A DNA stretch of 64,000 nucleotides from Candidatus Phycosocius spiralis (GTDB taxonomy: Bacteria > Pseudomonadota > Alphaproteobacteria > Caulobacterales > Aquidulcibacteraceae), in contig NZ_BPFZ01000001.1 in the NCBI RefSeq assembly GCF_030158815.1, forward strand, positions 1-64,000, written 5' to 3'. The stretch's first letter is position 1, and each line of letters begins with the position of its first letter. Under the pieces are notes generated by a model. The model was not told the DNA's origin. It was given only the letters and a program-made list of their open reading frames with translations, and made no database searches. The position numbers were made by a program, and so were the translations under genes. Below are positions 54,023 through 61,148 of this stretch, in pieces.

Positions 54023-54454
54023 TTAGCGACCCATGAATTCCACTTTGGTAAGCTGCACTTTCACAACCTTTAATCCTGGTTTAATGCTGGTAATAGCTGT
54101 GGTAATCGCACGGCTAATAGCGCCGGTATCATAAGAATTGCGGGTTTTTCCTGCAGGAATTGGGTTACGGGAAGTTTGTTTAGTTATCGCATCTCGCACT
54201 AGGAAATGTTTTTCACGCACAAAATCAGCTTGTGAAACGTCCTGCATGCGAACATTACACAAGACAAAAATATAATTTTCTAAAACACCATCTCGGACAA
54301 TTGGCATCACGATAAAATTCAATTCCAAATTGCTACGATCTGCAGCCTCCAGTTTTTTTTCTTGCGCAAGAGCCGAGTTACCAAATGCGGGAGCGGTTAA
54401 GGCCACGATTGAAAGGCCAAACCGCATCATGTTTCTTCGAGAGGGCGACATCAT
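54023..54454 (-). CDS. Conserved secreted protein of unknown function
   Basis: A 143-residue protein with a signal peptide that begins SRRNMMRFGLSIVALTAPAF (about residues 5-24), cleaved after NSALA near residue 30; the Arg pair hints at Tat export. The mature part, LELNFIVMPIVRDGVLENYI then VLCNVRMQDVSQADFVREKH, ends in ITTAITSIKPGLKVVKVQLT. I recall a similar small secreted protein between thiL and hppA in Caulobacter relatives, and the distribution of secondary-structure blocks slightly resembles FliL, but no function can be assigned. Confidence 0.75.
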   Translation of the reverse strand: MMSPSRRNMMRFGLSIVALTAPAFGNSALAQEKKLEAADRSNLELNFIVMPIVRDGVLENYIFVLCNVRMQDVSQADFVREKHFLVRDAITKQTSRNPIPAGKTRNSYDTGAISRAITTAITSIKPGLKVVKVQLTKVEFMGR

Positions 54455-56826: not shown

Positions 56827-56857
56827 AAAAGCCCTAGCTAGCAGCTAGGGCTTTTTT
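56827..56857 (+). terminator. Intrinsic terminator of hppA
   Basis: AAAAGCCCTAGCT and AGCTAGGGCTTTTTT enclose an AGC loop: a 9-bp G+C-containing stem extended by A/T pairs and followed by Ts, 23 bp after the hppA stop codon. Confidence 0.93.
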
Positions 56858-56965
56858 ATGATGGCCATGTGCGCGTTTGGTTTAGAGGCTTGGCTAAATC
56901 CCATGGTTTAGATAGGCTTATGAAAATTGGCTTTGTAGAAACAAGTCAGTCTTGGAGTAGCAGAC

Positions 56966-58120
56966 GTGCTCAAAGGGCAATGTTTGAACGATCCTTCCTT
57001 ATGTCATTTTGCCGCCCAGGGAATTGATTTGCCCTATGCAGGCTTCGACAGTGTCTGCCCAGCCTGTAATAGCCCGCTTGCACTTCTAGGCCATTTAGTT
57101 CCTGCAGACTACGAGCATGAAGAGATAGACACCCCTTCAAACATGGCCATTTCTAATAGCCAAGCCTTGCTAAAAGTGTCAGACCACCGAAAAGATCTAA
57201 AAGGACAATTTCAGCCGTTTTTTGTGCCCAGCAAAGGGGTAATTCAATTTTCACGCTTGGTCGCTTTAGGGTCAGGTTTGGCCCTTTTAGGCATTATTAG
57301 CGCGCGGATCTTTGCACCCTCACCCCCAGTTGATAACCCTGCAACCCAAGAAAGTCAGAATTCACACCTAAATGATTCTGGCCTTACGGCCCGGACGGAT
57401 GGCTTAAATCTGACCCAAATTTCACCCCCAGCTGTCAGGCAATTAAGTCAAGATGCACAAGCCTTTGTCTCGCCCGATCCCGACAGTGCAGTTATCGTTA
57501 ATTTGGCCAAGGGGGTTGTATTGGATATGACGGGTCGACTTCATGTGAGGGGAAGGGATTGGGCCCGCATCACTTTACCCCATGATCGCTCGCGCTCTGG
57601 CTTTGTGCGCGAAACCTTATTGGCAACTTTAGGCGACGGGGAGGGGGATTTTTCAAATATTGACCCTACAGCCGTAAACACAATCCAAGCCGTCAATGGA
57701 CCAATTATGCCAGTGCAGATCGGGCCATGGATGCATAATCAAAGTATAACCTATCAGATCATCGGTCCCCCTGCTGCTTTACGGCTGCAACCTGGGTATG
57801 AAAGCGTGCAAATTGGTCAAGTGCAAACTGGGCTAATGGTTAGCGTGATTGGTCAATTAACCAATGCAACAGGAACTTGGTTTCAAATATCCCTCACCGA
57901 TGGCCGGACGGGTTGGATTGCTTTTGCATCTATGGCCCCGATTGCGATGCCTACCACTTCAACATCTTCTGGTGAACCCGATACTTCTCATAGTGCAGCA
58001 GGGTCACAAACGATCGTCTCACCACCTGGTCAAGCCGTTTCCCAACCTGCCACCACCCCAGCCAATCTGCCAAGCCTTGCTGCACCAACAGATACAAATC
58101 CAGAAGCTGGCAGACCTTGA
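56966..58120 (+). CDS. Single-pass membrane protein with zinc-ribbon-like N-terminus and SH3 domains
   Basis: A 384-residue protein starting at GTG 56966 (GGAG 12 bases before). Residues 1-40 have four cysteines (6, 13, 31, 34; CPAC last) arranged like a small zinc ribbon, presumably cytoplasmic. One transmembrane helix lies near residues 93-115 (VALGSGLALLGIISARIF). The rest should be periplasmic and carries two bacterial SH3-like domains: AFVSPDPDSAVIVNLAKG...GRDWARIT...SGFVRETLL and LRLQPGYESVQIGQVQTG...TGTWFQISL...GRTGWIAF. The last 55 residues are a Ser/Pro/Thr-rich tail. SH3b domains often bind peptidoglycan peptides. Function is unknown; a paralogue-like gene lies 740 bp downstream. 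Confidence 0.75.
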   Translation: MLKGQCLNDPSLCHFAAQGIDLPYAGFDSVCPACNSPLALLGHLVPADYEHEEIDTPSNMAISNSQALLKVSDHRKDLKGQFQPFFVPSKGVIQFSRLVALGSGLALLGIISARIFAPSPPVDNPATQESQNSHLNDSGLTARTDGLNLTQISPPAVRQLSQDAQAFVSPDPDSAVIVNLAKGVVLDMTGRLHVRGRDWARITLPHDRSRSGFVRETLLATLGDGEGDFSNIDPTAVNTIQAVNGPIMPVQIGPWMHNQSITYQIIGPPAALRLQPGYESVQIGQVQTGLMVSVIGQLTNATGTWFQISLTDGRTGWIAFASMAPIAMPTTSTSSGEPDTSHSAAGSQTIVSPPGQAVSQPATTPANLPSLAAPTDTNPEAGRP

Positions 58121-58863
58121 AACAGGCAAAAAGGCTTAACTTTAGCCCTTTTTGGTAATTGTCTTCATAGCCATAGGATTGGAGTTGGTTCCAATTCGCT
58201 AAGATAAAAAGGCCTTGTGATCACCTAGGCTGCATGAAGGTGGTGAATGTTTTGAAGGGGGTCTCGATCAGGAGAGCCTTCACCTTGCAAATCCTTATTG
58301 CATGGGGTTTACATCTGTATGAACGGCTGGAAGGAAGAGGTGACATGCCTTGCGCTTCCAGTTTCCCATTGATTCAGCGATTTTATGCTTGATTAACGCA
58401 GCGATTGAGGATGTCAACAAGGGCTTTGTTAAGCACGATGTCATCAGCTGATCGGCATAAAAGTAAATGGCAGCTTGCTCCAAACACGATCAAGTACCAA
58501 ACCTGCGATGAGCCGGTTACCTATGCCCGACATTGATAGTTCGGCTGTTTAAGTAGCTAGAGAAGAACGACCCTTTGAGACGTTGAGCATTTGGGCTATT
58601 AAGTGCAAGCCCAGCGTTGAGGTTGTCTACCCTCCTTAATGGAACCAAACGAACAGTTTGACCCGTTTTGGCTATCAAGAACTATAGGTTGAAATTCAGT
58701 TTTCCATTTTATAAAGCTAAGGTGTGGAGATCTATGGTGTATGGTAAGACTATCGCAATGGGATAAGCCGACATGTGATTGGTTTAGATTACACATGTGT
58801 TCTACAATAAGCCAAAGCGGCCATGAAATGATTTCATTGGGATCTCTAACGGAGACATAGGTT
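58121..58863. other. Gene-free 743-bp gap
   Basis: Between the two SH3-protein genes neither strand has a convincing gene. Short minus-strand stretches exist (58444-58533 starting at an ATG, reading MSGIGNRLIAGLVLD; a different frame continues open to 58383), which could be remnants of a frameshifted gene, but they match nothing I know. No T-tract terminator or known RNA motif is evident. It could hold a small RNA or the regulatory region of the second SH3 gene. Confidence 0.45.
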
Positions 58864-59958
58864 ATGTATTCGCATGATTTTGATTCAAACTTAGAAGTCG
58901 ACGAGACTAAATCAGGCTTAGGATCCCGTATTTTTCTCACCCTGGTGGCTATTGGTGTGACGTGTTTGATTGGTTATGGCGCTGTTTTTGGTTTTACCAG
59001 CCTTTTTGACCATCACCATCACGAAGAGGAGGTTTTAGAAGCTCCTAGGTCCTATAGCGCTCTTGGACGGATAGCAGTGCGCCGAGAGCCTGATATTGAT
59101 GCACCAATCGCTCTTAACCTTAAGGAAGGAACAATTGTTTCAGGTCAGGTGGTTGGCATGAAGTCTGGCATTGAGTGGTTGTCCTTGACTGCAGTTGATG
59201 GTGCAAAAGGGTTTGCGCCAAAGGCCTTGTTTCGCGAATTGATAGCAGGAAAATCTGCGAGTAAAATCAATGGCGGGGTTCGTAATATCGTCACGTCTGC
59301 CCTCTTAAATCTCCGCGAAACACCTTCTATGTCAGGTAAAATCGTTGGCACAGTAGATGGTGGAACACGACTGGTCTCCGATGGCGTTGTTGAAGCCGAG
59401 GGTGAGTTGTGGATGCGCGTACCTTTAGGTGCCAATAGCACAGTTTTTTTGCTTCAACGTTTTACAACTGTTGATGATGATTCAGCTGTAGATGAGCTGA
59501 ATGTCTCAGATTATTCAAATGTTGGGGTTCTTGGCCGAGCTATGAGAGTAGCCAATGTACAAGCGACACCGTTTGAAAATTCTCGGACCATTCGCGCGCT
59601 ACAAATCGGGGAAATGGTACGTGTCATCGGGCAAACCAATTCCAGTATTGCATGGTACATTTTGCGACTAAATGATGGCTCGCAAGGGTTTGCTCCGAGA
59701 AGTTCGATCAGCATCGATAGTCGTGCGTCACGATGGGTCTATCCAGATGGTACAGACGCGCCAGGTCCCAACATTCCCCAAGGGCAAAGTGCACCCATCG
59801 ACCCCGCAAAACTTTTGCAAGATCAGATCACTGGTGATGTTTCAAATGGGACGCCCACCAGTGTCAAAGGTAAATCCACACAAAGTGATACTATCAGTGG
59901 CGTGGCTTCAACCACGCCAAACTCGGCCCAGTCTTCGTCTCAACCTCCTTCACAATAA
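58864..59958 (+). CDS. Single-pass membrane protein with three SH3-like repeats
   Basis: A 364-residue protein. A short acidic cytoplasmic N-terminus (residues 1-22) precedes a transmembrane helix (about 23-48, IFLTLVAIGVTCLIGYGAVF), then the cluster DHHHHEEE at 49-56, which could bind metal. The periplasmic part has three SH3b-like repeats, each with a RT-loop LR/VR/VQ motif and a W: IAVRREPDIDAPIALNLKEG..IEWLSLT..GFAPKA; LLNLRETPSMSGKIVGTVDG..LWMRVP; MRVANVQATPFENSRTIRAL..AWYILRL..GFAPRS. The tail (from about 300) is Ser/Thr/Gln-rich. Architecture resembles the protein encoded at 56966. Role unknown; envelope sensing or wall binding is an inference from SH3b domains. Confidence 0.75.
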   Translation: MYSHDFDSNLEVDETKSGLGSRIFLTLVAIGVTCLIGYGAVFGFTSLFDHHHHEEEVLEAPRSYSALGRIAVRREPDIDAPIALNLKEGTIVSGQVVGMKSGIEWLSLTAVDGAKGFAPKALFRELIAGKSASKINGGVRNIVTSALLNLRETPSMSGKIVGTVDGGTRLVSDGVVEAEGELWMRVPLGANSTVFLLQRFTTVDDDSAVDELNVSDYSNVGVLGRAMRVANVQATPFENSRTIRALQIGEMVRVIGQTNSSIAWYILRLNDGSQGFAPRSSISIDSRASRWVYPDGTDAPGPNIPQGQSAPIDPAKLLQDQITGDVSNGTPTSVKGKSTQSDTISGVASTTPNSAQSSSQPPSQ

Positions 59959-61036: not shown

Positions 61037-61148
61037 TAGAGAAGGAGGAGATCGGCGGTGGACATAGTCCTCGCCAATTCGGTCAGGTCCGGAAGGAAGC
61101 AGCCGCAACGAGTTTTGCTGTGGGTCGCCGTTCGGTCTCCACCCTCAC
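61037..61148 (+). ncRNA. ffs: 4.5S signal recognition particle RNA
   Basis: The invariant SRP core GGTCAGGTCCGGAAGGAAGC begins at 61081, followed by AGCCGCAACGAG and the returning strand GTGGGTCGCCG, and GGAGGAGATCGGCGG (from about 61045) can pair with CGCCGTTCGGTCTCC near 61127-61141. Ends are approximate. The gene stands directly upstream of dnaX, its usual place in alphaproteobacteria. It binds Ffh for membrane protein targeting. Confidence 0.93.

Follow-up and report, generated by a model that had tools for sequence, protein, structure and literature searches.

What do two neighbouring genes for membrane proteins with SH3 repeats do in 'Candidatus Phycosocius spiralis', a small, spiral, alga-associated bacterium, and do they belong together? 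The question is raised by the first 64,000 nucleotides of contig NZ_BPFZ01000001.1 (the window; the contig has 351,315 bases within an assembly of 2,502,038 bases), which carry gene A (56966..58120, plus strand, GTG start, 384 amino acids) and gene B (58864..59958, plus strand, ATG start, 364 amino acids). Both open reading frames (ORFs) are intact and have GGAG upstream; A encodes a predicted bitopic membrane protein with an N-terminal four-cysteine module and two SH3 domains, and B one with three SH3 domains. The original prediction, whose gene boundaries and 743-bp gap proved exact, had treated the two as a unit and suggested envelope sensing or a wall-linked scaffold. Judged by sequence comparison, A-B is a real, clade-restricted and conserved gene unit, for which such a scaffold, by analogy with known systems, is still the best guess, and two odd-looking details of the pair are local to this species. 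Searches of the open-licence PubMed Central literature, judged by titles and the opening lines of abstracts, gave no description of the pair.

The distribution of the two genes supports this conclusion. Our family sample comprised 60 genomes from 14 genera of the Aquidulcibacteraceae, a family proposed in 2025 to hold the clade that includes Aquidulcibacter, Pseudaquidulcibacter, Terricaulis and Vitreimonas (PMC12700997). Among the relatives that bear names are Aquidulcibacter paucihalophilus, 'Ca. P. bacilliformis' and Pseudaquidulcibacter saccharophilus. The four-cysteine module of A was found in 16 of the 60 genomes, the window genome included, belonging to four of the 14 genera, and a full or near-full B was found in the same 16. 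In every one of them the genes are adjacent, A then B, on the same strand, so the pairing holds, and none of these genomes had only one of the genes at an unrelated locus. B had 23 matches in the family, of which seven were partial, all of them in genus g11, and three of these seven are TIR-SH3 proteins. The hppA gene, which lies upstream of the pair in the window, is 80-92% identical to the window's copy in eight congeners, in genome G013 and in five genomes of genus g13, and at most 76% identical in the other matching genomes. As hppA is thus most similar in the same genera, the pair looks like the inheritance of a single clade.

Searches at wider scales are consistent with this restriction. 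A pattern-based scan with B across the contigs of 84,980 species returned 14 loci, all among the 15 known relatives, and missed G011. The four-cysteine module was also sought in order, class and phylum samples, which overlap, with 18 or 19 candidates scored per genome; absence at these levels is not proven with that number of candidates. The order sample gave 17 matches in 378 genomes at E 0.001, namely the 16 pair-bearing genomes and a partial one in G560 (E 4e-4), the class sample nine in 385 at E 0.01, one being the window genome, and the phylum sample 12 in 398, three of them pair-bearing. In all three samples the module matches outside pair-bearing genomes were partial and weak; the longest ORFs near the middle of six loci from the class-level searches with the module and with B did not look A-like, and in two (L065 and L066) the match probably lies, by eye, within a ferredoxin-like cysteine stretch. 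With up to five candidates per genome scored, B matched two of the 385 class genomes at 1e-8, the window genome and, through a partial SH3 match, G392.

Protein A, whose features like those of B all lie on the plus strand, begins with the four-cysteine module noted in the original prediction, C-x6-C-x17-C-x2-C (residues 2-41, 56969..57088; cysteines 6, 13, 31 and 34). Fifteen of the 16 orthologues share exactly this spacing, and the remaining one is truncated by the end of its contig. This is a putative zinc module. The window's copy has no Pfam match above cut-off, its relatives give weak Pfam matches (best E 0.011) and the best match to solved structures has an E of 0.34; it is barely probed in whole-model fold lists because SH3 matches fill them. 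A low-confidence linker in the AlphaFold2 (AF2) model leads to the predicted transmembrane helix (residues 92-115, 57239..57310), and the single hydropathy peak of the protein is at 98-116. Two SH3 domains follow, SH3-1 at residues 150-221 (57413..57628) and SH3-2 at residues 261-325 (57746..57940), with mean predicted local distance difference test (pLDDT) values per ten residues of 87-96 over 151-220 and 89-94 over 261-320, and then a low-complexity tail of low AF2 confidence (residues 329-384, 57950..58117).

Protein B likewise has a single hydropathy peak (residues 23-41) and one predicted helix (AF2, residues 19-47, 58918..59004), so that one helix each, as originally proposed, agrees with both methods. 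Its three SH3 domains, at residues 62-125 (59047..59238), 140-203 (59281..59472) and 222-284 (59527..59715), are modelled at moderate confidence, ahead of a low-confidence, low-complexity tail. Just C-terminal of the last domain stands the motif W-x-Y-x-D-G-T-x-A-P-G-P-x-x-P (residues 291-305, 59734..59778), which is exact in 14 of 16 orthologues and has one or two mismatches in the other two. The DHHHHEEE cluster beyond the helix (residues 49-56, 59008..59031), to which some meaning had been attached, is present in this species and in none of the other B orthologues (1/16; a run of at least three histidines likewise 1/16), and is therefore not a family feature.

The SH3 repeats are borne out by Pfam, by a repeat hidden Markov model (HMM) and by AF2, the last two giving two domains in A and three in B. 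Above cut-off, Pfam finds SH3_3 and SH3_4 in A and SH3_3 in B; SH3_3 (PF08239) scores 31.2 bits in A and 41.1 in B against a curated cut-off of 27, and every one of the 16 A and 16 B sequences matches it with an E of at most 0.1. The repeat HMM, for which the first two repeats of A and every repeat of B were used, places domains at 157-220 and 262-325 in A and at 62-124, 141-202 and 223-283 in B, all with E of at most 1e-18, scores that are not independent because the model was trained on these repeats. When the AF2 models were compared with known structures (Foldseek/VIA-align), both matched SH3b cell-wall domains, foremost the SH3b parts of wall hydrolases, so that SH3 folds are also predicted at the structural level. 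The lysostaphin SH3b-peptidoglycan complex 5leo_A aligned with A over 75 residues (Z 9.3, root-mean-square deviation 2.3) and with B over 76 (Z 9.9, root-mean-square deviation 2.3); in Foldseek, A and B share the same top match, the integrative model 9a7d_A (YRVJ-YACD). These matches suggest a shared SH3b-type fold and are not proof of function. The A and B profiles align with each other over the helix and SH3 region (hhalign probability 98.3, E 2.2e-14), a similarity that may come from shared repeats rather than a single duplication.

By analogy, we tentatively propose, as a quite possible reading that is far from assured, that A and B are similarly built single-pass inner-membrane proteins acting as one peptidoglycan-contacting envelope scaffold. 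Their N-termini would lie in the cytoplasm and their SH3 arrays in the periplasm, in contact with peptidoglycan, while the cysteine module of A would bind zinc and dock a cytoplasmic partner. The two proteins would work together: B, which carries the conserved motif behind SH3-3, would be the subunit on the wall side and under stronger constraint, and A would be the adaptor. The charges around the helix of B are as for an N-in protein, with more lysines and arginines before the helix than after it in 13 of 16 orthologues and equal numbers in three. Several points weigh against this proposal. For A, the same balance favours N-in in nine of 16 orthologues, is equal in one and opposite in six, which leaves its predicted topology unsettled, the charge bias giving no N-in preference in seven of 16. 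The models have their limits (mean pLDDT 62.7 for B, predicted template modelling score of about 0.3 for A and B), eukaryotic SH3 domains stand lower down in the same structure-match lists, and SH3 folds also bind proteins and peptides. Wall binding, zinc binding and contact between A and B are all steps that we infer.

The unequal repeat numbers and the long gap, which had been taken as traits of the system, turn out to be peculiar to 'Ca. P. spiralis' and go together with the loss of the third SH3 domain of A. By the repeat HMM, from whose training set third A repeats were left out, all 14 tested A orthologues and all 15 B sequences have three SH3 domains; G011 was outside the test of A, and its aligned sequence spans the region. 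From this comparison, the window's A has lost its third SH3 domain, and its tail occupies the place of the linker and third domain of the others. The intergenic gap (58121..58863, 743 bp) compares with about 8-131 bp in 15 relatives, lengths that rest on alignment-chosen B starts (the position in G011 is no start codon, making its 108 nominal), and with 77-121 bp in eight congeners when the longest ORFs are used. It has no Rfam match, and the region holds a minus-strand ORF (58599-58940). Repeated DNA was rejected as an explanation, the gap being single copy in its own genome.

We also considered a frameshift or assembly slip hiding the third domain, which found no support, since no remnant was detected in the gap while controls matched. 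Queries of the C-terminal 130 residues of eight congener A proteins gave nothing better than E 0.75 in 58000-58900, and when these queries were shortened to their final 75 residues there was no match at E of at most 1e-3 in 56900-58900. In the control, the 75-residue queries were found in 40 of 40 query-locus pairs at all five control loci (E 1e-46 to 1.8e-4), one locus being the source of one query, which makes that row trivial. Mean identity to seven congeners is 42.0% for the window's A against 55.7% for that of P. bacilliformis, and 60.6% against 66.4% for B. This divergence of A is weak evidence for relaxed constraint, because the branch of the species is long throughout and a neighbouring gene (54023-54454) drops more, to 44.7% against 68.2%.

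In contrast to the other Caulobacterales so far described, the species is reported to be spiral, the only such member of its order on record (PMC10008586). The loss of the third domain thus coincides with the only described spiral species, which makes a role in cell shape a testable speculation: the pair would serve cell shape in the Aquidulcibacter/Phycosocius group, as a convergent equivalent of Csd5 of Helicobacter pylori, and the loss would have helped the spiral shape, perhaps together with a widened gap that uncouples A from B. We consider this very unlikely. The window's A is the only one of 15 tested to lack the third domain, but the case rests on a single species, in which many genes were lost and this is a single coincidence among them, and the A of UKL13-1 (L052), which according to the same source might also be spiral (PMC10008586), keeps all three SH3 domains. 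If the speculation were true, it would offer a concrete explanation to consider for the spiral shape that arose in one member of the order.

As to the neighbourhood, a tie of the pair to hppA and nudC is not supported. In the window's genus, hppA lies upstream of the pair in nine of nine genomes and nudC directly after B in seven of nine, with other ORFs between in G003 and G004; hppA precedes the pair in three of five g13 genomes and not in genus g6. The tie to hppA was rejected, since in G020, G032 and G013 the pair is away from it, on other contigs and with other genes upstream of A; two of these pairs adjoin bamE and one adjoins lpxB/lpxI. G011, with an assembly 63% complete and a contig that begins within A, has no hppA match. 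In the pair-bearing genomes of the other genera, B is followed by an envelope gene in seven of seven (bamE in six, five of five in g13 and one of one in g4, and lpxB followed by lpxI in the one of g6), with an Omp85 (BamA-type) gene further downstream. Because three g13 genomes hold both the hppA and the bamE sides, the arrangements are most simply explained by an ancestral order hppA-A-B-bamE, later broken on either side, with a separate move in g6.

A strong terminator-like hairpin after hppA and upstream of A (56827..56855, plus strand, within a fold of -21.6 kcal/mol with a z of -4.5) suggests that A-B is its own transcription unit, which probably starts at A. Hairpins after hppA are also listed in L026 and L037; that of the window was missed by the window terminator scan, and scanning the region of the pair for promoters and for terminators gave fewer sites in the window than in shuffles (1 vs 4.2; 1 vs 3.5). 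A terminator directly after A was rejected, the hairpin there (-9.6 kcal/mol, z -0.8) being not above chance. Beside hppA, 54023-54454 (minus strand) encodes a small protein with, by eye, a signal-like start and no Pfam or NCBIfam match; it adjoins hppA in all nine genomes of the genus and also, encoded on the opposite strand, in three of g13. Further downstream, a bacterial small signal recognition particle RNA (61046-61144, plus strand, 58 bits vs a gathering score of 40) lies just upstream of a dnaX-like gene.

Among the other explanations, the envelope neighbours would fit an accessory of outer-membrane or envelope assembly, with the pair coupling inner membrane and wall to Bam or lipopolysaccharide assembly. 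These neighbours are on the opposite strand and convergent with B, which excludes an operon with it, the bamE adjacency may be a single inherited arrangement, and such a neighbour is missing from this place in all nine genomes of the window's genus, so that we regard this role as quite improbable. A sensor of envelope stress or metal, in which the SH3 arrays would read the wall and the cysteine module signal inside, has in its favour an anatomy that couples an outer domain of ligand type with an inner module of metal type; since no kinase, sigma, anti-sigma or DNA-binding domain was detected in A or B, and no regulatory gene was recognised by eye beside the pair, of whose neighbours few were scanned, we find it decidedly doubtful. 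It is also unlikely that A is here a gene in decay, left without a working role by the loss of its third domain as part of genome reduction. The small genome (2.5 Mb, against 3.1-3.7 Mb elsewhere in the genus), the lost 3' end and an identity that falls more in A than in B would agree with decay, but A retains a 384-codon open frame, the four cysteines, the helix and two well-modelled SH3 domains, and, as said, the branch is long and a neighbour falls more.

The remaining explanation is a polarity or pilus factor of the kind of ZitP in Caulobacter, a member of the same order, described as having an N-terminal cytoplasmic zinc module, one helix and a C-terminal periplasmic region (PMC5182063), the layout predicted for A. 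A would dock a polar scaffold, for instance PopZ, through its zinc module and recruit envelope machinery with its periplasmic part, B being the partner, and the species with the altered A is described as also lacking tad pilus genes (PMC10008586). However, ZitP has CXXC-x19-CXXC and DUF3426 where A has C-x6-C-x17-C-x2-C and SH3 arrays. The PF13717/PF13719 zinc ribbon has no match in A at E 1 or in the 16 A members at E 0.1, and Pfam at E 1 gives only SH3-type and GW matches in A, without DUF3426. Furthermore, a separate PF13717 zinc-ribbon gene is present in all 16 pair-bearing genomes (55 of 60 in the family). By its motifs A is not a ZitP, and we think a role of this kind improbable. The window genome's PF13717 protein (L105 772-1605, minus strand, genome G000 contig C4) has a hydrophobic stretch and adjoins an FtsE-like ABC-transporter ATPase, both by eye; naming it ZitP is unproven, because DUF3426 is not listed in it (Pfam scan, E 0.01).

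Returning to the scaffold reading, several known systems share parts of the architecture. TIGR04211 SH3_and_anchor combines, by its name, SH3 and a membrane anchor as in A and B, which score 13.3 and 18.3 bits against its cut-off of 65. YrvJ and other SH3b-repeat wall hydrolases share the SH3b-type fold with the A and B models, in neither of which the Pfam and NCBIfam scans detected a hydrolase domain. Within the family, the TIR-SH3 proteins of genus g11 (L040 5499-7850, minus strand, with a TonB C-terminal domain as well; L041 5545-6708, minus strand; L043 5160-6419, plus strand) share SH3_3 and have an N-terminal TIR domain; the four-cysteine module has no match in g11 genomes. In a Gram-negative, wall binding has been proposed for the SH3b lipoprotein TagV (PMC7614798).

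Csd5 is described as a transmembrane protein with a cytoplasmic N-terminal region that binds the bactofilin CcmA and a periplasmic SH3 domain that binds peptidoglycan (PMC9507126), and as confined to one genus (PMC3310797, PMC9507126). A and B have the same layout by prediction, one helix and then SH3, and are likewise lineage-restricted. They differ in having arrays of two or three SH3 domains, where one is described in Csd5, and in the putative zinc module, which goes unmentioned in the Csd5 descriptions cited here, where Csd5 acts together with MurF and bactofilin. The window genome has a bactofilin gene, as have all 37 genomes searched, so its presence does not discriminate. The likeness would thus be one of a way of working, not of demonstrated kinship: as in Csd5, the SH3 end would hold or read the wall and the cytoplasmic end would place a cytoplasmic factor there. 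If the mechanism is wrong, A-B is still a clade-specific gene pair with conserved motifs to mutate; if it is right, the pair would be another lineage-specific membrane bridge between wall and cytoplasm, in cultured freshwater relatives within the order of Caulobacter.

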